A stretch of DNA of 53,224 nt from Candidatus Rokuibacteriota bacterium. GTDB taxonomy: Bacteria > Methylomirabilota > Methylomirabilia > Rokubacteriales > CSP1-6. The notes beneath the pieces are model-generated. The model did not search any database. It was not told where the DNA came from and saw only the letters and a list, made by a program, of their open reading frames with translations. The stretch lies in contig JACPIQ010000123.1 in assembly GCA_016188005.1 (NCBI GenBank), forward strand, positions 1 to 53,224, read 5' to 3'. The position numbers and the translations under genes are program-made. How positions within the stretch are numbered: the stretch's first letter is position 1; each line of letters opens with the position of its first letter. This document shows positions 14,372 to 37,150 of the stretch, piece by piece.

Positions 14372-16579
14372 ATGAGTGATCGAGCCGAGCGGTTCGTCTA
14401 CGACGATGGCATCGTCCGCATGTTCCTGTTGGCGACCGTGGTCTGGGGGGCCGTCGGCACGGCCGTGGGGCTCCTGATCGCGCTCCAGCTGGTACACCCG
14501 CTCTTCAACTTCGAGACGCCGTGGCTGTCCTTCGGGCGCCTCCGCCCGCTGCACACCAACGCGGTGATCTTCGCCTTCGCGGGCAACGCCATCTTCACCG
14601 GCGTCTACTACTCGGCGCAGCGCCTCCTGCGGGCGCGCATGTGGAGCGACCTGCTGGGGCGGATGCACTTCTGGGGCTGGCAGGCGATCATCGTGGCCGC
14701 CGCCGTGACGCTGCCGCTGGGCTACAGCCAGTCGAAGGAGTACGCCGAGCTGGAGTGGCCCGTCGACATCGCCATCACGCTCGTCTGGGTGATCTTCGCG
14801 GTGAACTTCTTCGGCACCGTGGCGCGGCGTCGCGAGCGCCACCTCTACGTGGCGCTCTGGTTCTACATCGCCACCCTCGTTGCCATCGCCGTGCTGCACA
14901 TCTTCAACAACCTCGTGGTCGTCGCGGGCCCCATGAAGAGCTACACCGTCTACGCCGGGGTGCAGGACGCCTTCATGCAGTGGTGGTACGGGCACAACGC
15001 CGTGGCCTTCTTCCTGACCACACCGTTCCTCGGGCTCATGTACTACTTCCTGCCGAAGGCCGCGGAGCGGCCGATCTTCTCCTACCGGCTGTCCATCCTC
15101 CACTTCTGGACGCTGGTCTTCATCTACATCTGGGCCGGGCCGCACCATCTCCACTACACGGCGCTGCCGGCCTGGGCCTCCACGCTCGGCATGCTCTTCT
15201 CGATCATGCTCTGGATGCCCTCGTGGGGGGGGATGGTCAACGGCCTCCTGACGCTCCGCGGGGCGTGGCACAAGGTCACGGAGGACCCCGTCCTCAAGTT
15301 CTTCGTGGTCGCCGTCACCTTCTACGGCATGTCCACCTTCGAGGGGCCGACGCTTTCCATCAAGAGCGTGAACGCGCTCTCGCACTACACGGACTGGACC
15401 ATCGCGCACGTGCACGCGGGGACGCTGGGGTGGGTGGGCTTCATGGTGTTCGGGATGGTGTACTGGCTGCTGCCGCGCGTGTTCCAGGCGGAGCTGTGGA
15501 GCCGGAAGGCGGCGGAGCTGCACTTCTGGCTCGGCACCGTGGGGATCCTCCTCTACATCGTCGCGATCTACGCCGCCGGCCTCACGCAGGGCCTCATGTG
15601 GCGGGCCTTCGACGAGACCGGGCGGCTCGCCTACCCGGACTTCGTCGAGACGACGCTCAGGCTCATCCCCATGTACTGGGTCCGGGTGGTCGGCGGCGCC
15701 CTCTACGTCGCGGGCGTGCTGCTCTGCCTGGTCAACGTCGCCATGACGTGGCGGGGCCGGCCGGCGCGGTACGCCGAGCGCGTCCAGGAGGCGCCTGCGC
15801 TCTCGCCCGGCTACCCGGCCGGGGAGGGGCAGCCGGAGGCGGCCGGTCTCTCGGCGCTGGCGCGCTTCAGACGCGCCGCGTGGCACCGGCGCTGGGAGGG
15901 CCTCCCCGCCACCTTCACCGCGTGGGTGGTGGTGGCCGTGGTGAGCGCCTCGCTCTTCGAGATCGTGCCGATGTTCCTCGTCCGGTCGAACGCGCCCAGC
16001 ATCGCCGCGGTGCGGCCGTACACGCCGCTGGAGCTGGCAGGACGGGACATCTACGTGGCCGAGGGGTGCAACAACTGCCACTCGCAGATGGTGCGTCCGA
16101 TCCGCGCCGAGACCGTCCGGTACGGCGAGTACAGCAAGCCGGGCGAGTTCGTCTACGACCACCCGTTCCTGTGGGGCTCACGGCGGATCGGCCCCGACCT
16201 GCACCGGGTCGGGGGGAAGTACCCGCACCTCTGGCACGTGCGGCACATGGAGGACCCGCGCTCGACGACGCCGCAGTCCATCATGCCCGCCTACGAGTGG
16301 CTGCTGCGCCAGCCGCTGGACTGGGGCTCGCTGGCGGCCAACGTCAGGGCCCAGGTGAGCCTCGGCGTGCCCTATCGGCCCGAGGAGGTGGAGCGGGCCG
16401 CCGACCTCGGGCGGCAGCAGGCGCACGGCATCGCCCGGGAGGTGGTCCGGCAGGGCGGGCCTCCGGGGCTCGAGGAGAGGAAGATCGTGGCTCTCGTCGC
16501 CTATCTGCAGCGCCTGGGGACGGACATCAAGGCGCCCCGCCCGGCCACGGCCCAGGCGCGGGCGCAGGCTCTCCGATGA
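14372..16579 (+). CDS. ccoNO: cbb3 cytochrome c oxidase fused subunits I-II (CcoN-CcoO)
   Basis: 735 residues. Residues 1 to about 475 form the CcoN haem-copper core with many membrane helices and conserved His motifs, including GRLRPLHTNAV, HNAVAFF, GPHHLHY and TIAHVHAGTLG. After a linker, a membrane anchor precedes a CcoO domain with CNNCH at residue 566 and IMPAYEWLL near the Met ligand. CcoN and CcoO are normally separate polypeptides; the fusion is known in some lineages. Together they form the oxygen-reducing core and its monohaem subunit, suited to low oxygen. The gene heads the locus. Confidence 0.95.
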   Translation: MSDRAERFVYDDGIVRMFLLATVVWGAVGTAVGLLIALQLVHPLFNFETPWLSFGRLRPLHTNAVIFAFAGNAIFTGVYYSAQRLLRARMWSDLLGRMHFWGWQAIIVAAAVTLPLGYSQSKEYAELEWPVDIAITLVWVIFAVNFFGTVARRRERHLYVALWFYIATLVAIAVLHIFNNLVVVAGPMKSYTVYAGVQDAFMQWWYGHNAVAFFLTTPFLGLMYYFLPKAAERPIFSYRLSILHFWTLVFIYIWAGPHHLHYTALPAWASTLGMLFSIMLWMPSWGGMVNGLLTLRGAWHKVTEDPVLKFFVVAVTFYGMSTFEGPTLSIKSVNALSHYTDWTIAHVHAGTLGWVGFMVFGMVYWLLPRVFQAELWSRKAAELHFWLGTVGILLYIVAIYAAGLTQGLMWRAFDETGRLAYPDFVETTLRLIPMYWVRVVGGALYVAGVLLCLVNVAMTWRGRPARYAERVQEAPALSPGYPAGEGQPEAAGLSALARFRRAAWHRRWEGLPATFTAWVVVAVVSASLFEIVPMFLVRSNAPSIAAVRPYTPLELAGRDIYVAEGCNNCHSQMVRPIRAETVRYGEYSKPGEFVYDHPFLWGSRRIGPDLHRVGGKYPHLWHVRHMEDPRSTTPQSIMPAYEWLLRQPLDWGSLAANVRAQVSLGVPYRPEEVERAADLGRQQAHGIAREVVRQGGPPGLEERKIVALVAYLQRLGTDIKAPRPATAQARAQALR

Positions 16580-19439: not shown

Positions 19440-20182
19440 CGGCGCTCCTGGTGACGGTGCTGGGCTCGAGCCTCCTCGGGAGCCTGCACTGCGCTGGGAT
19501 GTGCGGGGGGTTCGTGGCGCTCCACTCGGGTGCGGCCACCTCGTGCCGGCGGTCGCGGAGCGCCGTTCTGGCCCACGGGGCCTACAGTGGAGGCCGTCTC
19601 GTGGCCTACGCGCTCCTAGGGGGCGGCGCGGGGGCGCTCGGGGGGGCTCTCGACCTGGCGGGGGCATCGGGTGGGATCCATCGTCTCGCGGCCCTTGTGG
19701 CGGGGTTCTTCATCGTCGTCTGGGGCGTGGCGGGGCTGGCGGAGGCGCTTGGCTTGCGTCTCCCGTTGCCCGGCTCCCCACGGGCTCTCGGGCGCGTTCT
19801 GGGCCGCGGCATGGAGCTGGCTGGGAAGTGGCCGGTTCCAGCCCGCGCGCTGGTCACCGGGCTTCTCGCCGCGCTGCTCCCATGCGGCTGGCTCTGGGCC
19901 TTCATCGTCACCGCCGCCGGCACGGGCAGCGCCGCCGCAGGGGCTCTGGTGATGGCGGTGTTCTGGGCCGGCACGCTGCCGATGCTCGCCGGCGTCGGGG
20001 TGCTGCTCGAGACCGGGGTCGGGAGGCTTCGCCGGCAGCTGCCGGCGGCCACCGCCGTGGCGATGATCCTGGTGGGGCTGCTGGCCGTCGCCGGACGGGG
20101 CGGGTCCGCGGCTCCACACACTGCTCACGTTCCGGCGGCTCCCGCGGCCGCGCATGGTCCTGCCTCCCATGCCGGTCGCTGA
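19436..20182 (+). CDS. TauE/SafE-like (DsbD_2) membrane protein of the cbb3 locus
   Basis: 248 residues, largely hydrophobic with about six helices. The opening GSLHCAGMCGGFVAL is a signature of the DsbD-like TauE/SafE proteins found beside ccoGHIS. A second Cys motif (LLPCGWLW) lies mid-protein, so Cys residues in the membrane may bind copper or exchange thiols. The C-terminus is Ala/His-rich. Its last 29 bases overlap ccoI. A role in copper delivery to the oxidase is inferred from context. Confidence 0.82.
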   Translation: MTALLVTVLGSSLLGSLHCAGMCGGFVALHSGAATSCRRSRSAVLAHGAYSGGRLVAYALLGGGAGALGGALDLAGASGGIHRLAALVAGFFIVVWGVAGLAEALGLRLPLPGSPRALGRVLGRGMELAGKWPVPARALVTGLLAALLPCGWLWAFIVTAAGTGSAAAGALVMAVFWAGTLPMLAGVGVLLETGVGRLRRQLPAATAVAMILVGLLAVAGRGGSAAPHTAHVPAAPAAAHGPASHAGR

Positions 20183-22664
20183 GAAGCCCGCGCCCGAGAC
20201 CTCCTCCGCAGCCCGGGGGAAGGAGAGCGCGTGCGCCCATTGCGGGCTGCCCGTGCCCGCGGCGCTCAGGGAGGCCGATGCGCCCAGACAGTTCTGCTGC
20301 GCGGGGTGCAGGGAAGTGCACGCGCTGCTGCAGGAGCATCGGCTCGGGCGCTACTACGAGCTGCGCGCCGCCGCAGAGCCCCGCGCCCCGGCCGCCCTCG
20401 CGGGAGGCGGTGACAAGTCCTACGCCGAGATGGACGACCCCGGCTTCCGGGGGCGTTGCTGCTGGGCGGCTCCGGGGGGTCTCGAGGCCACTGAGCTCTA
20501 CCTCGAGGGCGTGCACTGCTCGGCCTGCGTGTGGCTGCTGGAACGCTTGCCGCGCCTCTGCCCGGGGCTCGTGGAGGCGCGGCTCGACCTGCCGCGCTCG
20601 CGGGCGCGCCTTCTGTGGGACCCGCGCTCCGTGTCGCTTTCGGCCATCGCCCGGCGGCTCCACTCGATCGGCTACCCGCCGCATCCCTGCCGGGGACGTC
20701 GCGCCAGGGAGGCGCAGCAGCGCGAGGACCGGATGATGCTGGCCCGCATCGGGCTGGCCGGGGCGGCGGCGGGCAATGTGATGGCCATCGCCTTCGCGCT
20801 CTACGGCGGGATGTTCCACGAGATGGAGCCCGAGCTGGCGGCACTCTTCCGCTGGGCGAGCCTCGTGGTGGCGCTGCCGTCGGTGATCTGGGGAGGCGGC
20901 GTCTTCTTCAGGGGCGCCTGGGCGGCGCTGAGGCTCCGGATCCTGCACATGGACGTGCCGATCAGCATCGGGCTGCTCGCGGGCTTCCTCCACGGCGCCT
21001 GGAACACTGCACGCGGCGGAGGCGAGGTCTACTTCGACTCGGTGACCACGCTGGTCTTTCTCTTGCTGGTGGGGCGTTATCTCCAGCAGCGCCAGCAGCG
21101 CCTGGCGGCCGAGTCGGCCGAGCTGCTGGCCTCGCTGGCTCCTTCCTCGGCTCGGGTCATCGAGGGCGCGGCGACCCGGGAGGTGCCGCTGGAGGCGCTG
21201 GGGGCCGGGGCGCTGGTCGAGGTGCGTGCGGGAGAGACCGTGCCCGCCGACGGCGTCGTCGAGCGAGGCCGGTCCCGGCTCGACACTTCGCTCCTCACCG
21301 GGGAGTCGCGGCCCTCGACCGTGGCGCCCGGCGACCGGGTCCACGCGGGCACGGTCAACGTTTCCTCGCGGCTCGAGGTCCGCGTGGAGTGCGCGGGGGA
21401 GGAGACCCGCGTGGGCCGGCTCATGGCGCTGGTGGAGGAGCATGCCAGGCGACGCGCCCCCATCGTGCAGCTGGCTGACCGACTCTCCGGTCGTTTCGTC
21501 CTGGCCGTGCTGGTCCTGGCGGCGGCCACCTTCGCCCTGTGGATGCGGCTCGACCCGGCGCGGGCCGTGGACCATGCCGTGGCGCTGCTCATCGTCACCT
21601 GTCCCTGCGCGCTCGGGCTGGCGACGCCCCTGGCCGTGAGCGCCGCCATCGGTCAGGCGGCGCGGGCCGGCATCCTCGTCAGGGGAGCCGACGTCCTCGA
21701 GAAGCTCACCCGCCCGGGACTCCTGTGGCTCGACAAGACGGGAACGCTCACCGCGGGGCGCACCGCGCTGGTGGAGTGGTGGGGAGAGGAGGCGGCAAGG
21801 CCGCTGGTCGCCGCGGTGGAGGCCCACTCATCGCACCCCGTGGCCCGCGCCCTCTCCGAGGCGCTGGGCGACGGCAAGCCCGGCCCCGGGATCGACGTGA
21901 AGGAGATGCAGGGCGCCGGGATCGAGGGGTGGGTGGGCGGGCGGCACGTCATGGTGGGAGCTCCGGAGTGGGTGGCGACCCGGGCCCGGGACGTTCCCGG
22001 GGAGATGCGGGAGCGTCTTGGCGCCGCGCGCGGCGCCGGGCTCTCTCCCGTGCTCGTGGCGGTGGACAGCCGCGTCGTGGCGGTGGCGGCGCTGGGCGAT
22101 CCGCTGCGGCCGGATGCCCGGCTGGCCGTCGAGCGCGTGAAGGCCAGGGGCTGGCGGGTCGGTGTGCTGTCCGGCGACGATGCCGCAGTGGTGGCGGCCA
22201 CGGCCGGCCAGCTCGGGATCGGGCCGGGGGCCAGTCGTGGCCGCGTTTCGCCGGAAGGGAAGCTCGGGGTGGTGACGGAGGGGCTCGCCGAGGGCACGGT
22301 GGTCATGGTGGGCGACGGAGTGAATGACGCCGCGGCGCTGGCGGCGGCCACCGTGGGTGTCGGTGTCCACGGAGGCGCTGAGGCGGCGCTGGCGGCGGCC
22401 GACGTCTACATCACGCGGCTCGGGGTGGGGCGCGTGGCCGATCTCATCGACGGCGCCCACCGCGCCATGGCGGTGGTCCGGCGCAACCTGCTCTTCTCGC
22501 TCCTCTACAACACGGTGGGCGTGTCGCTGGCGATGGGCGGGCTCCTCGACCCGCTGGTGGCGGCCGTGCTGATGCCGGCGAGCTCGCTCACCGTGATCCT
22601 CAGCTCGTATCGCGCGCGCATGTTCCCCCGCGCCCCGGAGGAGGAGGCAACGGCATGGCGGTGA
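20154..22664 (+). CDS. ccoI: CcoI/FixI copper-transporting P1B ATPase
   Basis: 836 residues. The N-terminus has a Cys-rich CAHC...FCCAGC metal-binding segment typical of FixI, then an HMA-like domain with GVHCSACVW. The ATPase core shows TGES, the CPC metal site in the membrane (TCPCALG), DKTGTLT and GDGVNDAAAL. CcoI supplies copper for the CuB site of cbb3 oxidase. ATG 20154 is inside the upstream gene; ATG 20169 is an alternative. The end overlaps ccoS by ten bases. Confidence 0.93.
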   Translation: MVLPPMPVAEKPAPETSSAARGKESACAHCGLPVPAALREADAPRQFCCAGCREVHALLQEHRLGRYYELRAAAEPRAPAALAGGGDKSYAEMDDPGFRGRCCWAAPGGLEATELYLEGVHCSACVWLLERLPRLCPGLVEARLDLPRSRARLLWDPRSVSLSAIARRLHSIGYPPHPCRGRRAREAQQREDRMMLARIGLAGAAAGNVMAIAFALYGGMFHEMEPELAALFRWASLVVALPSVIWGGGVFFRGAWAALRLRILHMDVPISIGLLAGFLHGAWNTARGGGEVYFDSVTTLVFLLLVGRYLQQRQQRLAAESAELLASLAPSSARVIEGAATREVPLEALGAGALVEVRAGETVPADGVVERGRSRLDTSLLTGESRPSTVAPGDRVHAGTVNVSSRLEVRVECAGEETRVGRLMALVEEHARRRAPIVQLADRLSGRFVLAVLVLAAATFALWMRLDPARAVDHAVALLIVTCPCALGLATPLAVSAAIGQAARAGILVRGADVLEKLTRPGLLWLDKTGTLTAGRTALVEWWGEEAARPLVAAVEAHSSHPVARALSEALGDGKPGPGIDVKEMQGAGIEGWVGGRHVMVGAPEWVATRARDVPGEMRERLGAARGAGLSPVLVAVDSRVVAVAALGDPLRPDARLAVERVKARGWRVGVLSGDDAAVVAATAGQLGIGPGASRGRVSPEGKLGVVTEGLAEGTVVMVGDGVNDAAALAAATVGVGVHGGAEAALAAADVYITRLGVGRVADLIDGAHRAMAVVRRNLLFSLLYNTVGVSLAMGGLLDPLVAAVLMPASSLTVILSSYRARMFPRAPEEEATAWR

Positions 22665-25160: not shown

Positions 25161-25579
25161 GGCATGGCATGGACAAGGCCGTTGGGCTCGCGGCGTTGGC
25201 CCTGATGGCCGCGACCCCCGCCGCCGCCCTGACGCCACCGGCTGCCGCCGCGGTGGTCGTCATCGAGACGGCGGCGCTCCGCCCCTCCGTCCTCGCCACC
25301 ACGGTGGGCCGGCGCGTCACCTTCGTCAACCGCTCGGGACGCCCGGCCCACGTGGAGTTCCTCCCGGGGCACGGCGACGGGCACCGGGTGTTCCAAGTGC
25401 CCGGGCAGATCTGGGCCGTCTTCAACCGTCCCGGCCGCCACCACTACGTGGTGCACTTCTCCGTGCGGCGGGAGGCCGACCTGAGAGGCGCGGTGGACGT
25501 GGCCGAGGATCCGAACGGACGGCCCGCGTATCCGGAGTGCACCGAGCTCAGCGTGATGGGAGAGTGCCTTGAACCGTGA
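25157..25579 (+). CDS. secreted cupredoxin-like protein
   Basis: 140 residues with a signal peptide (cut near AAALTP). The mature part has the beta-sandwich pattern of cupredoxin-like domains: VTFVNRSGRPAHVEFLPG, then FNRPGRHHYVVHF. A His-rich GRHHYVVH stretch may supply metal ligands, although the Cys-His-Met set of true type 1 copper sites is not complete. The start overlaps the protease stop, and 11 bases overlap the RND gene. It may bind copper in the periplasm; this is inference. Confidence 0.6.
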   Translation: MRHGMDKAVGLAALALMAATPAAALTPPAAAAVVVIETAALRPSVLATTVGRRVTFVNRSGRPAHVEFLPGHGDGHRVFQVPGQIWAVFNRPGRHHYVVHFSVRREADLRGAVDVAEDPNGRPAYPECTELSVMGECLEP

Positions 25580-28500
25580 CGCCGTGGACACCACCCGAAG
25601 TAGCCGGGGCCGCGGGAACATCAGCCGCTGGTCCATCGAGCACCCGTACATCGTCATCGCCTTCTACCTGGGCGTGGCGCTGCTGGCCGCGCTGGTGATC
25701 TTCTTCCAGATGCCGAGGCGGATGATGCCGTACGTGGAGAGCCCCATCGTCGCCGTCGTCTCGATGATGCCGGGGCTGTCGGCGGAGGAGATGGAGATCT
25801 ACTTCTCCAAGCCCGTCGAGGAGCGCATGGTGGACCTCAAGAACGTCCACTTCGTCCGCTCCACCTCGCAGGAGGGCTTCTCCATCGTCAGCGTGGAGTT
25901 CTGGTACGGCACGGACATGAAGAAGGCGCTCTTCGACGTCCAGTCGCTCATGAACGTGGTGCAGGCCGACCTGCCCATGACGGGCGCCAATCTCAAGCCC
26001 TCCTGGGTGCTGGCCATCGACCCGCTGAACATCCCCGTGCTGTCGCTGGCCGTGACGGCGGAGGGCTATGACGCGGTCCAGCTCCGGACCCTGGTCGAGA
26101 ATGAGGTGGTGAACCGGCTCAAGACCGTGAAGGACGTCTACTCGGTCGTGCCCTTCGGGGGGCAGAAGCTGCAGATGCAGGTCGTGGTGGACCGCGAGCG
26201 GCTGGCCGCCTACAAGATGAACCTCATGGATCTCAAGAACGCCCTCGACATGCAGAACCTCTCCCGGCCGGCGGGAACGCTCACCTTCCAGGACCGCGAG
26301 CTCCTGGTCAGGACGGACACGCGGGCCCGGACTCCCGAGGAGGTGGCCGCCTACCCGATCACGAGCATGGACGGGCGCGTGGTCTATGTGAGGGACGTGG
26401 CGGAGGTGATGAATGCGGCCCGGGAGCAGCGGAGCCTCTACCGCCTCAACGGGAAGGAGGCCGTGGAGGTCTCGATCGTCCAGCAGCCGGAGGCCTCCTC
26501 CGTCAGGGTGATCCAGGAGGTCAAGGCCAAGCTGGCGGAGATCCGGGAGGACTTTCCGCGCTTGACGTTCGACGTCGCCTACGACAACTCGACCTTCGTC
26601 GGCTTCCTCATGGACAACATGGTGGAGGAGCTGGTGATCGCGGTGCTCCTCACCGGACTCGTGGTGTTGTTCTTCCTCGGGACCATCCGGGGGACGCTCA
26701 TCTCCGTCATCACGATTCCGGTATCGCTCGGCATGGCGCTCCTGGCCATGGTGCCCCTGGGGATGACGCTCAACAGCTCGACCCTCATCGGCCTGCTCCT
26801 CTCCATCGGTCGCCTGGTGGACGACTCGATCATCGATATCCACTCCATCGAGCGCCACCTGCGCATGGGCAAGTCCCCTAAGGACGCCGCCGTGGACGGC
26901 ATCACCGAGGTGCGGCTGGCGGTCCTGGCCATCACCTTCATGCTCTGCGTGGCGCTTCTGCCGCTGGCCTTCTCGGGGGGGATCGTCCAGTTCATGTTCG
27001 AGGGGATCGTGTGGGCCATCATCCTGGCGCTCCTGGCCTCCGCGCTCGTCTCTTTCACGCTCACCGCGCTGCTGGCGGCGAACCTCTTCGCGCCGCATGC
27101 GGAAGAGGCCGCGCGCCGGCGCGGGTTTCTCGCGCGCTGGTTGCTGGACCCGAGCCAGCGCGCGCTGGAGCGGCTCGAGTCCGGGTACCGCCGGAGCCTC
27201 GCCTGGGCCATCGCGAACCGTTTCGTGGTGCTCGGGGGCGCCGTGGCCACGATCCTCGTCGGGGTGGCGCTCTACCCCAAGATCGGCAGCGAGATGATGC
27301 CCCTGGCCGACGTCTCCCAGGCCTTCGCCCAGCTCGAGGCGACGCCGGGGACGTCCTCCGCGCGCACCGCCGAGATCGCTGCGGAGATCGAGCGGCTCCT
27401 GCTGAAGCAGCCCGAGATCGTCAAGGTCTCCTCCGAGGTGGGCTTCGAGCCGGGCGGCACCTACTTCACGGGCTACAGCATGGGGTCGGTGAACTCTGCC
27501 TTCATGATGATCACCCTGGTGGACTCGTCCAGGCGGAAACGGGACATCTGGCAGGTGATCGATGGCGTCCAGCAGGAGGCGCTACGGACCATCCCCGGGA
27601 TCCGCAGGCTGGCCATCAAGGAGATGGGAGCGGATGTCATGGCCTCCAGCGCCGCGCCCATCCAGGTCATCCTGTTCGGGCCCGACCTCGAGCGCCTTTC
27701 CGAGATGGGCGGGGACCTGCGGCGGCTGGCCGAGGAGATCCGCGGCTTCTACCAGGTGACGACCTCCTGGGCCCAGAGCCTGCCTCAGCTCCATGTGGTC
27801 GTGGATCGCGTTCGGGCCCAGGAGATCGGCCTGACGGTGAACGAGGTGGCGGACCAGGCCTACTACGCGCTCAAGGGTGGTCTCACCAACGAGTTCTACC
27901 GGCTCGACAACCGGCGGCAGTTCACCATCCTGGTGAGATATCGAGGCGATCAGCGGCGTGACCGGACCGACCTCGAGCAGGTGAAGATCGTCGGCAAGAA
28001 GGGCGAGGTGCTGCCGCTGCTCTCGGTGGCCCGGGTGGAGGAGCGGCGCGGGCCCACGCTCATCGAGCACGACAACTTCCGCCGCGTGGTCTCGGTGCTC
28101 GGCTACTACCGCAAGGGCGGCCCGCCCAGCATGGAGCTGTCCATGGATCTGGTCATGGCCGCCCACGAGAAGCTGGACTTCCCCCCCGGCTACGGCGTGG
28201 AGCTGCGCGGGGACATGACCCAGATGGAGGAGTCCTTCCAGCGGCTCCTCAGGGGCCTCTATCTCGCCGTCATCTTCATGTTCCTGCTCCTCGTGGCGCA
28301 GTTCCGGAGCCTCATCGAGCCGTTCAACATGATCTTCTCGCTGTCGCTCATGGTCACCGGCATCCTGGGCGGACTGCTCCTCGCGCGCCAGACGTTCTCG
28401 ACGGTCTCGATCCTCGCGGTGGTCATCCTCACGGGGATGATGATGACGGTGGCCGTGCTCATGATCGACCTGGTCCTCCGGCTGCGCGGCGAGGGAGTGC

Positions 28501-28784
28501 CGCGCGACGAGGCCATCCTGGCCGCGGCGCCCGTGAGGCTCCGGCCCATCCTCATGACCTCGCTGATCAGCATCGTCGTGCTGATCCCCGTGGCCTTCTT
28601 CCCCCGCACGGGCATCGATGCCTACGCCCCGCTGGCCACCGTGGTGATCGGCGGGCTCTCCATCGGCACGCTCCTGGCGCTGTTCGTGGTCCCGGTGCTG
28701 CACACCTACACGGACGACCTGGCCGCTCTCGTACGTGGGCTCGCCCGGCGACTGCTGAGGCGACGCGGGGAGACGGCGGCATGA
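25569..28784 (+). CDS. RND-family inner-membrane transporter
   Basis: 1071 residues with the twelve-helix, two-large-loop layout of RND pumps. Helix 4 retains the proton-relay acidic pair in RLVDDSIIDIHS. In helix 10 the position of the usual Lys (AcrB Lys940-like) is Thr in GMMMTVAVLMID. The TTG start at 25569 is preferred because GGGAGAG lies just upstream and the protein begins before the first helix. With the adjacent membrane-fusion and TolC-like genes it forms a tripartite exporter. The Met/His-rich adaptor suggests metal, possibly copper; substrate is not proven. Confidence 0.9.
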   Translation: MNRDAVDTTRSSRGRGNISRWSIEHPYIVIAFYLGVALLAALVIFFQMPRRMMPYVESPIVAVVSMMPGLSAEEMEIYFSKPVEERMVDLKNVHFVRSTSQEGFSIVSVEFWYGTDMKKALFDVQSLMNVVQADLPMTGANLKPSWVLAIDPLNIPVLSLAVTAEGYDAVQLRTLVENEVVNRLKTVKDVYSVVPFGGQKLQMQVVVDRERLAAYKMNLMDLKNALDMQNLSRPAGTLTFQDRELLVRTDTRARTPEEVAAYPITSMDGRVVYVRDVAEVMNAAREQRSLYRLNGKEAVEVSIVQQPEASSVRVIQEVKAKLAEIREDFPRLTFDVAYDNSTFVGFLMDNMVEELVIAVLLTGLVVLFFLGTIRGTLISVITIPVSLGMALLAMVPLGMTLNSSTLIGLLLSIGRLVDDSIIDIHSIERHLRMGKSPKDAAVDGITEVRLAVLAITFMLCVALLPLAFSGGIVQFMFEGIVWAIILALLASALVSFTLTALLAANLFAPHAEEAARRRGFLARWLLDPSQRALERLESGYRRSLAWAIANRFVVLGGAVATILVGVALYPKIGSEMMPLADVSQAFAQLEATPGTSSARTAEIAAEIERLLLKQPEIVKVSSEVGFEPGGTYFTGYSMGSVNSAFMMITLVDSSRRKRDIWQVIDGVQQEALRTIPGIRRLAIKEMGADVMASSAAPIQVILFGPDLERLSEMGGDLRRLAEEIRGFYQVTTSWAQSLPQLHVVVDRVRAQEIGLTVNEVADQAYYALKGGLTNEFYRLDNRRQFTILVRYRGDQRRDRTDLEQVKIVGKKGEVLPLLSVARVEERRGPTLIEHDNFRRVVSVLGYYRKGGPPSMELSMDLVMAAHEKLDFPPGYGVELRGDMTQMEESFQRLLRGLYLAVIFMFLLLVAQFRSLIEPFNMIFSLSLMVTGILGGLLLARQTFSTVSILAVVILTGMMMTVAVLMIDLVLRLRGEGVPRDEAILAAAPVRLRPILMTSLISIVVLIPVAFFPRTGIDAYAPLATVVIGGLSIGTLLALFVVPVLHTYTDDLAALVRGLARRLLRRRGETAA

Positions 28785-29257
28785 GCCCGCGGGTCCGCTA
28801 CCTCTCGACGACGCTGGCCCTCCTGGCGGTGGCCGCCGGCTACGCGCTGAGCCAGGGCTGGCTGGAGCGCCAGAGCCCGCGCCCCGTGCTGCGGGAGGCG
28901 GGGGTGCGACCTGTGCCTCCGCCTGCGCCCGCGCCATCGGCGCGTGAGATCCTGGATCGGGGTCCGGCGGTGGGGCTCTCCAGGGAGCAGGCCGCGCGGC
29001 TCCGGGCCCTCGACGCGGAGTGGACGAGGCAATCCAGCGACCTTCAGGCCGCCATCGACGACGAGGAGCGGCAGTTCTCGGCATTCATGAAGGAGGCTCA
29101 GGGCGGCCGCGGGGCCAGCCTCCAGGAGATTCAGCGGCGGTCGGCGAATCTGAGAGACCTGAGCGCGACGCTCCGGGAGGCGCGGTGGCGTCACGGCCTC
29201 GCCTCGGCCGAACTCCTGACCGAACAACAGCGCCGGACCCAGGGAGATGTGCGATGA
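28781..29257 (+). CDS. membrane-anchored heavy-metal sensor-like protein (CnrX/Spy-like)
   Basis: 158 residues: an N-terminal membrane anchor (about 8-25), a Pro-rich linker, and an all-helical domain from residue 60 with an LSREQAARLRALDAEW helix and further charged helices. This layout matches periplasmic metal sensors or chaperones of the CnrX/CpxP/Spy group. It is coupled to the RND gene by ATGA and to the adaptor gene by four bases. A role in metal sensing or in protecting the exporter is inferred. Confidence 0.6.
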   Translation: MSPRVRYLSTTLALLAVAAGYALSQGWLERQSPRPVLREAGVRPVPPPAPAPSAREILDRGPAVGLSREQAARLRALDAEWTRQSSDLQAAIDDEERQFSAFMKEAQGGRGASLQEIQRRSANLRDLSATLREARWRHGLASAELLTEQQRRTQGDVR

Positions 29258-30741
29258 ACTTCAACCAGGCTGACCGAGACCCCCTCCTGATGACCGACGA
29301 CCGCCATGAGGTCGCCCGCGAGCCGGGGGGACGGGCGCTCGGCGCCAGGCGGGTGGTGAGGCTGGTCGGGACGGTGGTGGTCGTGGCCGCCGTGGTGCTC
29401 GCCGGGATCTGGGCCTACCAGGCCAACGTGGGATCGGGCCGTGCGGCGATGGACATGAGCATGCGGGTGACGAGCGGAGGCACACCGTTCCCGGTGGGCG
29501 CCGCAACCGTGGAGAGGGGCGCCATCGCCGGCACGGTGACCTACACGGGCAGCGTCGCACCCTTCAACGAGGAGGAGATCTATCCGCGTGTGACCGGCCG
29601 TATCGTGGAGATGACGGTGTATCCGGGGGATGCGGTGCGCGCGGGCCAGGTCGTGGCCCGTCTGGACGACGTGGAGCTCTCCTCGCGGGTTCGCGAGGCG
29701 GAGGCGATGCTGGCGACGTCTCAGGCGGGCCGGGCGCAGATGGAGGCCGACCTGTCTGCAGCGCGCCACGGCGTCACCCAGATGGAGAGGGAGCTGGCGA
29801 TGGTGGAGGCCGAGGTGGCCTACGCCCGCGCGCTGATCGCGCGGACGGAGCGCCTGTTCAACGCCGGCGCGGTCTCGCGCCAGGAGTACGAGAGCGACAG
29901 GGCCATGGCCGCGGCGGCCGAGGCCAAGCGGGAGGCCGCCCGGGCGAAGATCGAGCAGGCGCGCGCCATGGAAGTCTCAGCCAGGCGGAAGGTCGAGGCA
30001 TCCGAGTCCATGGTGATCCAGAGCCAGGCCGGGGCCCGGACCGCCCAGGTGGTGCGCGACTACGTCACCATCCTCGCCCCGAGCGCGGGCTACGTGGTGA
30101 AGCGTCTGGTGGCGCCGGGCGTCCTGGTGCAACCCGGGATGGCCATCCTCAAGATCACCCAGATCGACCGCGTGAGGCTCCAGGCCAATGTCGGCGAGCG
30201 GGATCTTGCCTCGATCAGGGTCGGCTCCCCCGTGAAGGTGGCGACCACGGCAGGAGGCCCGCCCATCGCGGCGCGGGTGACGGCGGTGTTCCCGTTCGTG
30301 GACCAGGGAGGCCGTACGGCGGTGGTGGAAGCGATCGTGGGAAACGCCGGCCGGCGGCTGCTGCCGGGGCAGTTCGTGAGCATGGAGTTCACGACGGGCG
30401 AGCGCGGGAGCGCGCTCCACGTCCCCCGCGGGGCGGTGTCACGACTCGGGGACAAGGCCACCGTGTGGGTGATCAAGGACGGGCGGGCGGAGCCGCTGCC
30501 GGTGACGACGGGGCTCGAGGGCCCGGAACGCGTCGAGGTCACCCAGGGGCTCGTGGGCGGCGAGCGCGTCGTGGCCAGGGGCCACGAGGGGCTCTACGCC
30601 GGTGCGCGCGTGAGCGAGGTCGGGGAGGGCGGCGCGCGGCGCCCGGAGATCGCGGAGCCGAAGAAGGGCATGGAGGGGATGCCGGGGATGGAGCAGTCAC
30701 CCGCGAAGCCAAAGGAGGGCGGGCATGGCGGCGGTCACTGA
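29254..30741 (+). CDS. RND efflux membrane-fusion (adaptor) protein
   Basis: 495 residues: N-terminal membrane anchor (about 30-50), a lipoyl/hairpin region with a long coiled coil (about 145-265), and beta-barrel and membrane-proximal domains. A Met-rich patch follows the anchor (MDMSMR), and the C-terminus is Met/His/Gly-rich (MEGMPGMEQ, GGHGGGH), consistent with metal binding as in CusB-type adaptors. It overlaps its neighbours on both sides. Copper or silver is the likely substrate, inferred from the Met-rich ends. Confidence 0.88.
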   Translation: MNFNQADRDPLLMTDDRHEVAREPGGRALGARRVVRLVGTVVVVAAVVLAGIWAYQANVGSGRAAMDMSMRVTSGGTPFPVGAATVERGAIAGTVTYTGSVAPFNEEEIYPRVTGRIVEMTVYPGDAVRAGQVVARLDDVELSSRVREAEAMLATSQAGRAQMEADLSAARHGVTQMERELAMVEAEVAYARALIARTERLFNAGAVSRQEYESDRAMAAAAEAKREAARAKIEQARAMEVSARRKVEASESMVIQSQAGARTAQVVRDYVTILAPSAGYVVKRLVAPGVLVQPGMAILKITQIDRVRLQANVGERDLASIRVGSPVKVATTAGGPPIAARVTAVFPFVDQGGRTAVVEAIVGNAGRRLLPGQFVSMEFTTGERGSALHVPRGAVSRLGDKATVWVIKDGRAEPLPVTTGLEGPERVEVTQGLVGGERVVARGHEGLYAGARVSEVGEGGARRPEIAEPKKGMEGMPGMEQSPAKPKEGGHGGGH

Positions 30742-32116
30742 GCGCCTGGGGAACGACTGGGGGATGGGCGCGGCGGCGGCAGTGGTGGCGGGAACGCTGC
30801 TCCTGGCGGTGACGGCTCACGCCCAGCCGTTGCCCCGCATCGAGGGTCCGCTGACCATGGAACAGGCGGTGGACATCGCCCGCCAGAAGAGCCTGCGCGT
30901 GAAGGCCGCCGGCGCCGACGCCCGCGTCATGGACTCGATGCGGCGCGAGGCGCTGGCCCCCTTCTGGCCGCAGCTCTCCGCCAATGGCTACTTCGCCGAC
31001 CAGCGCATGGCCCCGAACGTCTACACCTCCGCCGGCAACACGATGGCGAAGAACTACCAGGTGTTCAATGCCGACCAGACGCGCGACGGCAACTTCACCG
31101 CCATGTACCCGCTCTTCTCCGGGGGGCGCGACTGGTACGGCTACAAGGCGGCGGTGGCGCGAGCTGATGCCGGGCGCCAGATGCTCCGCGGCGTGGAGGT
31201 GGACGTGGCGATGCAGGCCCGTCTCGACTACATCGCCGCTTTGCGGGAGGAGGAGAACAGGCGAGTGACCGGCGACCTCCTGCGTGACATCGACGAGCGC
31301 CTTCGCGTGAGCCGTCAGATGTTCGACGCCGGCCGCATCCCGCGCTACTACCTCCTGCGGGACGAGGCCGAGCGCGCCAACGCGGTCCAGATGGACGCGA
31401 TGGCGCAGAGCCGCGCCGAGTCTGCGCTGGTGGCGCTCAAGACCACCCTCGGCGTGGACCTCTCCTCGCCGATCACGCTCTCGGATCGCCTCGAGCTCGT
31501 TCCCGCGGCGCTCTCCGTGGACGAGGGCATCCGTCAGGCGGGCGAGATCCATCCGGACCTGAAGGCGGCGGCCAAGCAGCGCGAGGCCGCGCAGGCCGAG
31601 GTCCGCGCCGCCTACGGGAACTACTTCCCCCAGGTGTCGCTGTCCTACATGTACGACTGGGCATGGATGAAGAATCGCGCCTGGGAGTCGCAGGAGGAGA
31701 ACATGCGGATGCGCGGGGAGACGAGCGAGGGCTACTCGATCGGGGTGGTGGTGACGCTGCCGCTCTTCGATGGCTTCATGCGGGAGAACGCGCTGAACAC
31801 GGCGAAGGCCAAGCTCGAGCGCGCCGCCCACGCCGAGGGGCTCACCCGCCAGCAGATTGCCAAGGAAGTCAACCAGGCGGCGCTCATGCTCACCGCGGCC
31901 GAGAAGGGCGTGGAGGCGAGCCGCAAGGGGCTCGAGCAGGCCGAGGAGGAGGCCCGCATCGTCAAGGAACGCTTCGAGGCTGGGCGGGGAATCCAGGTGG
32001 AGATCCTGGATGCCCAGGTGAGTCTCACGCGCGCGCGGTTCAACTCGGTGGCGGCGCTGGCCGAATACCACACGGCGCTGGCCATGTGGCTCCGGGCCAC
32101 CGGCCGCATCCGGTGA
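30725..32116 (+). CDS. TolC-family outer-membrane efflux protein
   Basis: 463 residues with a signal peptide (cut near AHAQPL) and two TolC-type repeats of long helices and beta-strands, including LTMEQAVDIARQKS and TLPLFDGFMRENA segments. It completes the tripartite RND exporter. A GGAGG site lies within the adaptor gene and the two genes overlap by 17 bases. Confidence 0.9.
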   Translation: MAAVTERLGNDWGMGAAAAVVAGTLLLAVTAHAQPLPRIEGPLTMEQAVDIARQKSLRVKAAGADARVMDSMRREALAPFWPQLSANGYFADQRMAPNVYTSAGNTMAKNYQVFNADQTRDGNFTAMYPLFSGGRDWYGYKAAVARADAGRQMLRGVEVDVAMQARLDYIAALREEENRRVTGDLLRDIDERLRVSRQMFDAGRIPRYYLLRDEAERANAVQMDAMAQSRAESALVALKTTLGVDLSSPITLSDRLELVPAALSVDEGIRQAGEIHPDLKAAAKQREAAQAEVRAAYGNYFPQVSLSYMYDWAWMKNRAWESQEENMRMRGETSEGYSIGVVVTLPLFDGFMRENALNTAKAKLERAAHAEGLTRQQIAKEVNQAALMLTAAEKGVEASRKGLEQAEEEARIVKERFEAGRGIQVEILDAQVSLTRARFNSVAALAEYHTALAMWLRATGRIR

Positions 32117-32148: not shown

Positions 32149-32472
32149 ATGGGAGGCCGGATGATGGGCGTACTGCCGGGGTGGCTCGTGTCGACCGCGC
32201 CGTCGCTCCAGGAGCGAATGTCCGAGTGGGGGTGGGGGCTGCACCCGATGTGGGGGGTCTGGGGCGCCTGGGGCATCGGCATGATGATCATGGGGCTGAT
32301 CTTCTGGGCGGGGGTGATCGTCGTGATCGTGCTCGGAATCCGCTGGCTCGCGAGCCAGGGGAGGGAACCGAGGCCCGACACGGCACTGGACATCCTCCGC
32401 CAGCGGTACGCACGCGGCGAGATCGGCAAGGAGGAGTTCGACTCGAAGAGGCAGGATCTGGCATCTCGCTGA
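32149..32472 (+). CDS. SHOCT-domain small membrane protein
   Basis: 107 residues: a Met/Trp/Gly-rich N-terminus, one strong membrane helix (about 45-65), and a C-terminal SHOCT motif with DILRQRYARGEIGKEEFDSK. SHOCT proteins of this form are common next to copper and heavy-metal efflux genes; their function is unclear. A GGGGAGGGAAGG ribosome site precedes ATG 32149. Confidence 0.8.
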   Translation: MGGRMMGVLPGWLVSTAPSLQERMSEWGWGLHPMWGVWGAWGIGMMIMGLIFWAGVIVVIVLGIRWLASQGREPRPDTALDILRQRYARGEIGKEEFDSKRQDLASR

Positions 32473-32506: not shown

Positions 32507-32974
32507 ATGAGAAGGCAGGAGAGCACGCCACGGCCCTCGCCGCGCCGAGGGTGGCGATGGGCGGCATCGGGAGCGCTGGCGCTCATCACCGTCGTGGCGT
32601 CCGCATTCTGGTGGTCGGCGGGCTCGCCGGACGCCGTGGGGCAACCGCGCCTGGTCGTGGACCGCACCGATGTGGACCTCGGCGACGTTCGCTTCGAGAC
32701 GCCGGCTCGGGTGCTCTTCACGCTGACCAATGCGGGCGATGCGCCACTGCACCTGAAGGAAGTTCCGAGGGTCCTCGCCAAGGCGGGCTGCTGACCGCCT
32801 CCCGCGGTCGTCGGGCAGACGACCATCGCTCCGGGTACTTTCACGACCCTGTCGCTCGCGTTCACGATGCACGCAGGGATGGGCGGCTACCACGAGTTCT
32901 GGGTCCCGGTGAAGGTCAACGATCCAGCCGCTCCCGAGCAGCGGCTGGTTGTCCGGTCCAACTGGGTCCCCTGA
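32507..32974 (+). CDS. DUF1573-like membrane-anchored protein, probable selenoprotein (TGA at codon 96)
   Basis: The frame has a GGAGGAG ribosome site, an N-terminal anchor (about 20-38) and an Ig-like DUF1573 pattern (VDLGDVRFETPARVLF). At codon 96 (32792-32794) it meets TGA directly after a Gly-Cys pair, where DUF1573 proteins carry Cys. The same frame continues for 59 codons with matching sequence (IAPGTFTTLSLAF, YHEFWVPVKVND) to TGA 32972. A perfect hairpin at 32806-32824 sits at bacterial SECIS distance. The simplest reading is a 155-residue protein with Sec96 in a Cys-Sec pair. A nonsense mutation would also fit, but the preserved 3' half, the position at an expected Cys and the hairpin argue against it. 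No selA, selB, selC or selD is in view. Confidence 0.65.
32806..32824 (+). promoter_or_regulatory. putative bacterial SECIS hairpin
   Basis: GGTCGTC and GACGACC form a perfect 7-bp stem around a 5-nt loop GGGCA. The loop begins 18 bases after the TGA at 32792-32794. Known bacterial SECIS elements start their apical loop about 16-37 bases after UGA and have a G among the first two loop bases; this hairpin meets both conditions. It also lies within coding sequence. Confidence 0.6.
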
Positions 32975-33160
32975 GTCCCGGCGACGGGGCGGGTCGTGGA
33001 GATCACGAAGCTGCCGTATCCGGATCGGACGCTCGACGTCGTCCTCTCAACATGGACCTTCAAGGCCCTGGCTGACCCGCGAGCGGCCGTTCGAGAGCTC
33101 TTGCGCGTCATCTACGGCTTTTCGACACGGCCCGAGAGCGGTCTCGCCGGAGGTTCGTGA
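32975..33160 (+). pseudogene. fragment of a SAM-dependent methyltransferase
   Basis: The 61 codons after the DUF1573 stop are open and read VVEITKLPYPDRTLDVVLST followed by LADPRAAVRELLRVI, the motif II-III core of class I (type 11) methyltransferases. The N-terminal SAM-binding glycine loop and the C-terminal part are missing, and no start codon with ribosome site is present. This is a relic joined to the preceding gene by deletion or rearrangement. Confidence 0.6.
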
Positions 33161-33456
33161 TGACGAATGGACAACGACCCCCTGACACGGGCCCCTGGTT
33201 TCGGACGCGTTCAGGCTTCGCGCTGATTGGCTTCCTGCTCATCGCTGGATTCTTCCTTGTGACCGAGCACACCGCCCACCTCCTCGGGATCCTCCCGTAC
33301 CTCTTGCTCCTCGCATGTCCGCTGCTGCACTTCTTCCTTGCTCGGCGCGAGGAGCGCGAGGTGCAGGCGGAGTGTGGCGAAGCGTATGCGCGTTACGCCC
33401 GGCGAGTGCCGGGGTTCATCCCGCGCTTCCGAGGGCGAATCGAGCGGCGGGTATGA
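33160..33456 (+). CDS. chimera of DUF2933 and isoprenylcysteine methyltransferase C-terminus
   Basis: 98 residues. Residues 1-58 match the DUF2933 pattern of small metal-cassette membrane proteins (LLIAGFFLVTEHTAHLLG, LLLLACPLLHFF). The rest (EEREVQAECGEAYARYARRV and PGFIPR) matches the end of isoprenylcysteine carboxyl methyltransferase family proteins. The catalytic part of that enzyme is absent. A deletion fusing two neighbouring genes is the likely origin, and the reading frame is kept. Whether the product works is unknown. Confidence 0.65.
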   Translation: MTNGQRPPDTGPWFRTRSGFALIGFLLIAGFFLVTEHTAHLLGILPYLLLLACPLLHFFLARREEREVQAECGEAYARYARRVPGFIPRFRGRIERRV

Positions 33457-33521
33457 GCGAGGACGAGCGACGGAGAACCCGTCAACACGGCACGTTGGTG
33501 GGGCGGGCAAAGGAGACAGTG

Positions 33522-33806
33522 ATGACGACGAGAAGTCCATGGAGGATCGGAGTCACGATGGCGTTGACGGTCGCGATCGCCTATACCGTCTGTACGCTCG
33601 CCTATGCGTTGATGCCACAACTGGGGATCGACTTCCTGAATGCGCTGTTTCATGGACTCGATTTCCGCAAGCTCGGGGCGCCTGGGCCGTTCACCTTGAT
33701 GATGTTCGTCTATCCTCTGGTTGTCATGGTGGTCTGGGGGTTCGCGGTCGGGACGCTCTTCGGCTGGCTGCACAACAGGCTGCATGGCGGGAGCGCCCGT
33801 GGTTGA
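33522..33806 (+). CDS. DUF5676-like small membrane protein
   Basis: 94 residues with two to three helices. The patterns TMALTVAIAYTVCTLAYALM, NALFHGLDF and FGWLHNRLHGG fit DUF5676, a family of small membrane proteins common in copper/mercury resistance cassettes. An AAAGGAGAC ribosome site precedes ATG 33522. Function is unknown; its neighbours are copper-related. Confidence 0.7.
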   Translation: MTTRSPWRIGVTMALTVAIAYTVCTLAYALMPQLGIDFLNALFHGLDFRKLGAPGPFTLMMFVYPLVVMVVWGFAVGTLFGWLHNRLHGGSARG

Positions 33807-34005: not shown

Positions 34006-34302
34006 CATTCGCTCGCGCGCGGCCGGATGCTCAAGGATGGCGCGCGGTCCGTGCGGATCCTCGATGAGGAGGTCCCGGTACGGGCTCGCATCGAGGCGAT
34101 TCACAGGCTCTCGGCTCATGTGGACGCCGACGGGCTCATGCGCTGGCTGCGTACAGCATCCCGGTCCCCGGAGCGGGTGTTCGTGGCCCACGGGGATCCC
34201 GATCCGGCGAAGAGCTTGGCGGATCGGATCTGGATAGAGCGCGGCTGGGACACCATGGTCCCGGCATATCGGGTGGGGGTCGACCAAGGAGGAGGACGGT
34301 GA
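34006..34302 (+). pseudogene. C-terminal fragment of an RNase-type metallo-beta-lactamase protein
   Basis: The frame is open from 34006 and includes ATG 34027. It encodes about 90 residues with [34 protein letters not shown] and [18 protein letters not shown], the C-terminal (beta-CASP/KH-proximal) end of RNA-processing metallo-beta-lactamase exonucleases. The N-terminal metal-binding HXHXDH domain is absent, so it is a truncated remnant. Its 3' end supplies the ribosome site of copA and overlaps its GTG by four bases. Confidence 0.65.
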
Positions 34303-36776
34303 AGCTGAGCGACGAGCTGCGGCGTGTGGAGCTGGCAATTGATAACCTGACCTGCTCCACCTGTGCCAAGAGCGTCGAAGAAGCGCTCCGGAGCGTCCCC
34401 GGCGTCAAGGCGGTCGCGGTCAACCGAGCGTCGGGCGTCGCGTTCGCCGATCACGATCCGAATGAGACCTCGGTCTGGGCCCTGTACGGGGCACTCAAGG
34501 CCGCGGGCTATCGTACTGGTAGCGCCAAGGTGCGATTCCAGATCAAGGGCATGACCTGCGCATCCTGCGTGACCGCGATCGAGGGGGCGCTCCGGGCAAC
34601 GCCGGGAGTCCTCAACGCCCACGTGAGCCTCGGCAGCGAGGAGGCGCTCGTCGAGTACGTCCCCGTCACGACCGACCTCCAGGCCGTGAGAGCGGCCGTG
34701 GCGTCCGCGGGGTATGCTGTGGCCGACACGCCGCCCCCGGCGAGTTCGAGCGCCCTCGATCGGGAGACGGAAGAGCGCGGCCGGGAGTATCGGACCCTGA
34801 TGCGCCAGTGGTGGTTCGGCGCGGCGGTCGGGACGTTCACGATGATCATGAGCTATCCGTGGCTCTTCCCGGGGCTGGGCACCCTGTTCCCCCGGGACAG
34901 CCACCGGCTCTGGTACATGTGGGCGGGCATGGGCGTCGCCTCGCTCGCGGTGATGCTCTACAGCGGGCGCCACTTCTTCACGGGCGCGTGGCAGGCGCTC
35001 AAGCACCGGTCGGCGAACATGCACACCCTGATCGCCCTGGGGACCGGGGTGGCCTGGATCTACTCGACCATCGCGCTGCTCTTTCCCGGCATGTTCCCGT
35101 CGCAGGAGTTCGCCGATGTCTACTACGACGTGACGGTCGTTGTGATCGCGCTGGTGGACCTGGGGCTCGCCATGGAGCTCAAAGCGAAAGGGCGGACCTC
35201 GGAGGCGATCAAGAAGCTGATCGGCCTTCAGGCCAAGACGGCACGCGTCCTGCGTGACGGCCAAGAGATCGACATCCCGGTGGAGGAAGTTCTTGTCGGC
35301 GATACCGTGGTCGTCCGGCCTGGGGAGAAGATCCCCGTGGACGGGAAGGTGCTCGAAGGGACCTCCGCTGTGGACGAGTCCATGGTGACGGGCGAGTCTC
35401 TCCCCGTGGAGAAGCAGGTGGGCGACGAGGTCATCGGCGCCACGATGAACACGACGGGGGCGTTCCGCTTCCGGGCCACCAAGGTGGGCAAGGACACGGC
35501 GCTGGCCAACATCGTCCGCATGGTGCAGGACGCTCAGGGCTCCAAGGTCCCCATCCAGCGCATCGTGGATGTGGTCTCCGGGTACTTCACGCCGAGCGTG
35601 GCGATCCTGGCGATCCTGGGCTTCATGATCTGGTACACGTTCGGGCCCGAGCCGCGCGTGGTCTACGGGCTCATCGTGGCGGTCACGACGCTCATCATCG
35701 CGTGCCCCTGCGCCCTGGGCATGGCCACCCCCATGTCCCTCACCACCGGCGTGGGCCTGGGGGCGCTCAACGGCATCCTGATACGTGGGGGCGATGCGCT
35801 GCAGTCGGCGGAGAAGCTTCAGACCGTGATCCTCGACAAGACGGGCACGATCACGCACGGCAAGCCGGTTCTGACCGATGTCGTGCCGGGGCCCGGCGTC
35901 GAGGAGGCGACCCTGCTCCGGCTGGCTGGCGGTGTCGAGAAGTCCTCCGAGCACCCCCTGGCGGCCGCCATCGTGGAGGGGGCTCAGGCCAGGGGGCTGG
36001 CGCTGCCGGACCCGTCGAGCTTCGCCGCCATCCCCGGGCACGGCATCGAGGCCACCGTGGAGGGCCGGGTGCTTCTCCTCGGCAATGCCAAGCTCATGCG
36101 GGACCGCAAGGTCGAGCTGGGCGACCTCGAAGCCCGGGCTCAGCAACTGGCCGACGATGGCAAGACGCCGATGTTCGCCGCCCTCGACGGCAAGCCGGCC
36201 GGCATCGTGGCCGTTGCGGACACGGTCAAGGCCGACTCCCTGGCGGCGATTCAAGCGCTCAAGGGGATGGGGCTCGAGGTGGTGATGATGACCGGTGACA
36301 ACGAGCGCACCGGGAAAGCCATCGCGCGCCAGGTAGGCATCGAGCGGGTCCTCGCCGAGGTCCTGCCGCAGGACAAGGCCTTCAATGTCCGGAAGCTCCA
36401 GCTCGAGGGCAAGCGCGTGGCGATGGTGGGCGACGGGATCAACGACGCGCCGGCCCTGGCCCAGGCCGATGTGGGCTTCGCCATCGGCACCGGCACCGAC
36501 GTCGCCATCGCTGCCTCGGACATCACGCTGATCAAGGGCAGTTTGGGCGGGGTCGTGACGGCCATGCGCATCAGCCGCGCGACCATGCGCAACGTCTACC
36601 AGAACCTCACCGGCGCCTTCATCTACAATATCCTTGGTCTCCCGGTGGCCCTCGGCGTCCTCTATCCCGTCTCCGGCATCCTGCTCTCGCCTCTCCTGGC
36701 GGCCCTGGCCATGTCCTTCAGCTCTGTGACCGTCATCGGCAACGCCAACCGGCTCAAGCGCTGGAGGCCGTCATGA
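34299..36776 (+). CDS. copA: Cu(+)-exporting P1B-type ATPase (CopA)
   Basis: 825 residues. Two N-terminal HMA domains carry LTCSTC and MTCASC copper sites. The core has TGES, the membrane CPC site at about residue 469, the phosphorylated Asp513 in [19 protein letters not shown] and a C-terminal [15 protein letters not shown] helix typical of P1B-1 copper pumps. It expels Cu(I) from the cytoplasm. The GTG start at 34299 has a strong AAGGAGGAGG site. It is coupled to the following cupredoxin gene by ATGA. Confidence 0.95.
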
Positions 36777-37150
36777 GCTGGGACCGGGTCGTCGTCGATG
36801 TGGCCGGGCTGGCGCTGATCGCCGTCATCGTCTGGTTCTTCTGGCTCGTGAAGGCCACGGGCGTCCATGCCGCGGCAACGAGCGGCGGCTACCAGGAGCA
36901 GATGGTGCTCGTGAAGGGGGGCTATACGCCCGACGTGATCGTGGTTCAGGCCGGCAAGCCGGTGCGCCTTAACTTCGTCCGCCAGGAGTCCGCCTCGTGC
37001 TCGGAGATGGTGCTGCTGCCGGCGTTCGGGAAGTCCGCGAAGCTCCCAGAGGGTGCGACGGTGCCCGTCGAGTTTCTGCCCAAGGAGAGAGGGGAGTTCG
37101 AGTTCGCCTGCCAGATGGGCATGCTGCGCGGCAAGATCGTGGTGGAGTAG
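36773..37150 (+). CDS. membrane-anchored cupredoxin-domain protein
   Basis: 125 residues: an N-terminal membrane helix (about 8-28) and a cupredoxin-like domain (about 40-125) with [32 protein letters not shown] and [12 protein letters not shown]. The Cys/Met-containing FACQMGM loop is a plausible copper site. It is translationally coupled to copA, so a role as periplasmic copper acceptor is likely. Confidence 0.8.

Follow-up and report, generated by a model that had tools for sequence, protein, structure and literature searches.

A DUF1573-like gene in the analyzed window (the whole 53,224-nucleotide stretch of DNA from a Candidatus Rokuibacteriota bacterium) contains an in-frame UGA codon at residue 96 that is almost certainly read as selenocysteine (Sec). 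The comparative evidence for this reading has three components: (i) the same TGA occurs across the homologues of the gene, (ii) a covarying SECIS-like hairpin follows it, and (iii) the sel genes are present in the source genome. Thus, the comparisons support the proposal of a probable selenoprotein made in a preliminary description of this DNA. The combined statement, that residue 96 is Sec and that the protein takes part in copper/CuA/cytochrome thiol chemistry, is probable, at a lower confidence than the Sec reading itself. The features discussed are listed in Table 1.

Table 1. Positions of the selenoprotein gene, its elements and its neighbors in the window
Feature	Position	Strand	Basis
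RND pump	25569-28784	+	Assigned from sequence; conserved place beside the relative in L057
Membrane fusion protein	within 29020-30741	+	Pfam HlyD
Outer-membrane factor	30725-32116	+	Pfam OEP
Small SHOCT-like membrane protein, directly upstream	32181..32472	+	ORF; SHOCT by inspection, without Pfam match
Selenoprotein gene (putative)	32507..32974	+	155 aa with Sec96; translation, Pfam DUF1573, 22-homologue alignment, AlphaFold2 model
UGA codon (predicted Sec96), directly after Cys95	32792..32794	+	TGA in 36/36 C-U homologues read, Cys in one
SECIS-like hairpin GGTCGTC-GGGCA-GACGACC	32806..32824	+	Covariation over 34 homologues; fits bacterial SECIS model
Clade-specific M-H-x-G-M-x-G-x-H, residues 121-129	32867..32893	+	Conservation; candidate ligands Met121, His122, Met125, His129
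DUF2933 small membrane protein	33157-33456	+	Pfam; DUF2933 also near L148 relative
DUF5676 small membrane protein	33429-33806	+	Pfam
Copper-type P-type ATPase	34299-36776	+	tblastn to CopA-like ATPases of relatives
Cupredoxin	36773-37150	+	Pfam Cupredoxin_1

The UGA codon, its decoding machinery and its conservation

Translated with TGA as U, the gene encodes MRRQES...AKAGC-U-PPPAVVG...NWVP and is itself terminated by TGA (32972-32974). An N-terminal membrane helix (approximately residues 15-37) is followed by an Ig/ASH-type DUF1573-like domain (approximately residues 47-155), and a match to Pfam DUF1573 (PF07610) covers residues 51-144, crosses the TGA, and scores 30.8 bits against a gathering cut-off of 26.1. 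The translation agrees with the earlier placement of the TGA at codon 96 after a Gly94-Cys95 pair and, together with the spanning Pfam match, with the claim that 59 further in-frame codons carry domain sequence. The additional claim that the TGA lies where DUF1573 proteins carry Cys holds in part: Cys95 aligns with the first Cys of the C-G-C motif, whereas Sec96 aligns with its Gly.

All four sel genes proposed as a check in the preliminary description are present in the assembly of the window (5.37 Mb, 140 contigs), and its potential refutation, a genome without selB or selC, failed on the finding of selB and tRNA-Sec. The tRNA-Sec gene (69.3 bits, anticodon TCA, that is UCA), selA (Pfam SelA, 501.7 bits) and selB (364 bits) are located within 5 kb on contig C4, and selD (348 bits) is located on contig C86 (G000:C86:102037-102972, L124). 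Sec-containing SelD is a well-known selenoprotein; therefore, the in-frame TGA of this selD (AACAG-U-ASK) serves as an internal positive control. Since selB is almost universal in the window's class, its co-occurrence with the gene encoding the Cys-Sec (C-U) form is uninformative; no full-length selB match was found in three incomplete C-U genomes (G023, G033 and G151).

Homologues were collected from 148 relatives, a profile search of 388 genomes, the phylum of genome G231, and 400 genomes of the phylum of a Chloroflexi metagenome-assembled genome (MAG). The 148 relatives yielded 23 matches with exactly one internal stop, which is TGA every time and reads as G-C-U-P-P in those complete over this stretch, and the profile searches revealed a single in-frame TGA in about 50 homologues from at least four phylum-level groups. 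The C-U gene was found in the window's class, the phylum of G231 and G398, the lone-phylum genome G142, and Chloroflexota. Where the TGA falls, all 36 C-U homologues that were read have the motif G-C-U-P-P, and at codon 96 the comparison gave TGA in these 36, Cys in one, and no random stops, which the preliminary description had named as a refutation. A homologue of the same family, from genome G011 (L022), has exactly the protein sequence of one from a Candidatus Rokuibacteriota MAG (L047). The sole Cys form, GCCPP, is encoded at L048 (L127 is the same locus) in a genome that retains selB.

In a maximum-likelihood tree, the C-U rows and the C-C row constitute one side of a 100/100 branch with a length of 2.83. 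The C-C row is nested within the C-U clade; thus, Sec is very likely ancestral in this clade, where it is nearly fixed (36 C-U versus 1 C-C), and the Cys form appears to be a reversion. Two sequences are placed unexpectedly: that of G151 (L085), a genome classed outside the window's class, nests within Rokubacteriales, and that of G035 (L034) is nearly identical to sequences of family f9; these placements may reflect MAG contamination or recent transfer. No relatives of the selenoprotein were found in the phage and plasmid records searched, and nothing therefore points to a mobile element.

These data bear on two explanations of the TGA other than Sec. That it is a sequencing error, or a true stop in a decaying gene or pseudogene, is extremely improbable and already refuted by the comparisons: only the TGA itself and the draft state of the source assembly speak for it, whereas an identical TGA is found in dozens of genomes, the frame beyond it is open and conserved, and the downstream hairpin covaries. 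The recurrence of one TGA in dozens of independent genomes, along with the covarying hairpin, excludes a read error, which the preliminary description had named as a potential refutation. Reassignment of UGA to Trp, Gly or Cys in the source organism, for which no support was found, is even less credible and is likewise refuted, as TGA terminates both the selenoprotein gene and its neighbors, the Sec machinery is complete, and the only non-UGA homologue carries Cys.

The hairpin downstream of the UGA codon

A perfect 7-bp stem with the loop GGGCA, 18 bases past the TGA, had been reported in the preliminary description, and all of its elements were confirmed in the sequence. Positions 32806-32812 pair with 32818-32824, the loop occupies 32813-32817 and starts 18 nt after the UGA, and the fold has an energy of -11.5 kcal/mol. 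The hairpin lies within all limits of the published model for bacterial SECIS elements, which specifies a stem of 4-16 bp, a loop of 3-9 nt with an early G, a distance of 16-37 nt from the UGA, and a minimum free energy of at most -7.5 kcal/mol (PMC13188914). As evidence for a SECIS element, the energy of the hairpin in a single sequence is weak and uninformative: the single-sequence fold of 49 nt has z = -0.35, and a comparable stem of at least 7 bp with a G-led loop follows, in the same range, 9.6% of the window's TGA triplets.

Covariation was analyzed in 34 distinct gap-free homologue sequences of 48 nt. The 7-bp stem is paired in 96.6% of stem cells, and double compensatory changes are observed in 36 cells at six of the seven pairs, compared to a mean of 8.2 in shuffled alignments and a value reached in 0 of 500 shuffles; the covariation score is 0.504 versus 0.214 in shuffles. 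The shuffle control leaves relatedness in, and therefore a control with a slid stem and the independent lineages also count: pairing drops to 13-66% when the stem is slid by 1 to 3 columns. RNAalifold applied to the homologues returned the identical stem.

In Rokubacteriales, GGTCGTC-GGNNN-GACGACC encodes VVGQTT, whereas in most Chloroflexota GACCATC-GGTTC-GATGGTN, with an unchanged stem position, encodes TIGSMV; thus, some of the compensatory changes altered the protein. In the stem of L126, GGTTGTG-GGTGC-CACAACC, the changes are synonymous and V-V and T-T are retained. Synonymous codon agreement in the first 19 sequences averages 93% inside the stem versus 71% outside. By inspection, the DNA of the Cys homologue L048 has no such hairpin at the corresponding site. 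Three observations together place the hairpin beyond chance: each relative that was read has its single TGA at this codon, the stem covaries, and synonymous codons in it are constrained. Short of an experiment, the covariation, the codon constraint, and the absence of the hairpin from the Cys form constitute the strongest evidence that Sec is inserted. A scan of the whole window at Rfam gathering thresholds gave no match, a result not counted against the hairpin. The comparisons strongly support a mechanism in which SelB with Sec-tRNA(UCA) decodes UGA96 as Sec under the direction of this hairpin, 18 nt past the codon.

Structure, gene neighborhoods and possible function

The AlphaFold2 model, built from 3 sequences, has an Ig-type domain after one N-terminal helix, with pLDDT mostly above 85 from approximately residue 50. 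Its structure matches in PDB are ASH/PapD-like domains (OCRL, HYDIN) and 2qsv; the fold is not that of thioredoxin. The product, a member of a distinct DUF1573 clade, is predicted to be membrane-anchored and probably periplasmic, with an Ig/ASH fold. In the model, Cys95-Sec96 is located in turn 94-99, and the motif M-H-x-G-M-x-G-x-H starts in turn 120-126. Met121, Met125 and His129 are present in 37/37 clade members and His122 in 34/37; the Met/Met/His set is missing from the UGC and CGC relatives compared column by column. Met and His residues of such a set are typical Cu(I)-type ligands, and Met121, His122, Met125 and His129 are possible metal ligands.

The copper/metal cassette proposed in the preliminary description as the setting of the gene is corroborated by cupredoxin, CopA, SCO1 and COX2 neighbors in the window and in the relatives. 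Inspection of the sequence identified a subunit of a cbb3-type oxidase at 14372-16579 and another P-type ATPase, Cys-rich at its N-terminus, at 20154-22664; the metal/oxidase cluster of the window thus extends upstream.

Comparison of the neighborhoods of the relatives revealed a recurring theme of copper transport, CuA-type or cytochrome centers, and thiol redox. The order in other Rokubacteriales is a beta-propeller protein, a cupredoxin/COX2-Fer4_5 fusion, a CuA-like COX2, a methyltransferase, the selenoprotein, and then often CopA. In Chloroflexota, it is PCYCGC, cupredoxin/COX2, Fer4_5, COX2 with cytochrome c, the selenoprotein, HMA, a metal-sensing repressor, and CopA. The Cys form L048 retains the PCYCGC, cupredoxin, Fer4_5 and COX2 neighbors. 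Near the selenoprotein are also found SCO1 and a multicopper oxidase (L054), CcmF, DsbD_2, Rieske and Glrx-like proteins (L051), CcmF, CcmE and CcmH (L148), CcmF and CcmH (L060), an adjoining DsbA-like protein (L058), and MerE, a MerR-family regulator and a flavin disulfide reductase (L142, genome G742). At L059 and L119, the selenoprotein has no copper or Ccm neighbor.

Within 12 kb, the large Chloroflexota contig of L142 carries mercury-type genes, PCYCGC, two COX2-like cupredoxins, Fer4_5, the selenoprotein, HMA, the repressor and CopA. PCYCGC (PF13798) proteins adjoin the C-U selenoprotein in L144, L142 and L146 and the Cys form in L048; the PCYCGC/CYCXC family is itself listed among selenoprotein families (PMC13188914).

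From the neighbors and the conserved residues, we infer that the likeliest role of the protein is periplasmic thiol/selenol redox chemistry combined with Cu(I) handling for CuA-type or cytochrome centers. Cys95-Sec96 would act as a redox pair and, perhaps with Met121, Met125 and His129, would form a redox-active selenenylsulfide/selenol and/or a Cu(I) site. The protein might thereby maintain the thiol groups of CuA-like cupredoxin or cytochrome centers in the reduced state and supply these centers with copper, much as SCO1, CcmG or DsbA-type partners do. Sec96 itself might be a copper ligand, in a Cys-Sec/Met/Met/His site delivering or reducing Cu(I) for CuA-like proteins; this version is rather unlikely and, if true, would make the protein a periplasmic copper chaperone based on selenium.

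Two other functions overlap with the main statement, so that the likelihoods given here do not sum to one. The protein may be mainly a thiol/selenol oxidoreductase that uses a C-U selenenylsulfide on the disulfides of cytochrome c/CuA maturation and does not bind copper. The CcmF, CcmH, CcmE, DsbD_2, Glrx-like and DsbA proteins nearby are in line with this function, as is the redox activity of the majority of known selenoproteins (PMC13188914); the fold, however, is not thioredoxin, and the strict conservation of Met121, Met125 and His129 suggests a metal. A purely redox function is less likely than not. Binding of a soft metal (Cu or Hg) for detoxification, as a part of an export cassette and not of cofactor assembly, is unlikely. 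It would fit the RND pump and the P-type ATPase around the selenoprotein in the window, as well as MerE, the MerR-family regulator and the metal-sensing repressor in L142, but the best-conserved neighbors are electron-transfer proteins (the COX2-like cupredoxin and Fer4_5), which exporters do not need. The clade ties selenium to copper/CuA/cytochrome maturation clusters of little-studied phyla, and its specific Cys-Sec-Met-Met-His set is a candidate selenium-copper site open to direct testing.

Comparison with known proteins

The closest bacterial fold match, 2qsv from Porphyromonas gingivalis (E 2.6e-6, rmsd 2.4; profile match E 0.0095), has a longer chain, its function is not known, and it is not known to contain Sec. 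The likeness to SCO1/SenC copper chaperones (PF02630) concerns the proposed role only, thiol redox and copper for CuA: SCO1-type proteins have a thioredoxin-fold SCO domain with CxxxC, whereas the window protein has an Ig/ASH fold and gave no SCO1-SenC match in a Pfam scan. The Cys-Sec (CU) proteins SaoL, SaoC, MbdU and CopZ-like form 2 (PMC13188914) share with it the vicinal Cys-Sec and links to metals or organometals; by their names they belong to other families, and the window protein did not match their NCBIfam models at E up to 10.

The occurrence of Sec in DUF1573 is not itself new: OS_HP2, with its UGC motif, carries it at the neighboring residue (PMC2398784, PMC13188914). OS_HP2 was described as a Sec-containing DUF1573 protein with the motif UxC (PMC2398784), and two reviews, of 2022 and 2026, give the DUF1573 Sec motif as UGC (PMC9312934, PMC13188914). 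The C-U clade is apparently uncatalogued: the table of the 2026 review, where DUF1573 appears as UGC only, does not include it (PMC13188914), and NCBIfam release 20 has no model covering it.

OS_HP2-type DUF1573 selenoproteins were found at eleven places in other genomes, with U-D-C and U-A-C variants. Those at L109-L117 and L065, in about ten genomes of other groups, have U-G-C and in one case U-A-C, and two of them are in the genome of L112. U-D-C proteins with the TGA on the first Cys are encoded at L121 (G086:C34) and L123 (G081:C285), in two genomes that have a C-U protein as well, and are an apparent further Sec variant of the DUF1573 fold. Genome G067 carries both U-G-C-type and C-U-type proteins.

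The possibility that the window protein is an ordinary OS_HP2 member was considered and rejected as highly improbable. The two share a Pfam family, a DUF1573-type domain whose C-G-C turn carries the Sec (NF041425, PF07610), and a weak match, and their profile-profile probability is 98.6%. However, the window protein scores 22 bits against the curated NF041425 cut-off of 100 bits, and neither any tested C-U member nor any genome of the window's class scores above it. The profile alignment places Cys95 with the Sec of OS_HP2, Sec96 with its Gly, and Pro97 with its second Cys. Thus, OS_HP2 has U-G-C, with Sec on the first Cys column, whereas the C-U clade has C-U-P, with Sec one residue off on the Gly column, Pro in place of the second Cys, and Met121/Met125/His129 in addition. 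The alignment columns, the cut-offs and the tree, where the clade is separated by its long branch, therefore indicate a separate Sec-DUF1573 clade with a shifted Sec and not strict OS_HP2 proteins.

Gene callers cut the members of this clade at residue 95, and they are probably recorded as truncated genes. The selenoprotein family has a wider range than expected, with a function that is at present a hypothesis, and, in comparison with OS_HP2, the clade represents Sec at a second position within one fold.
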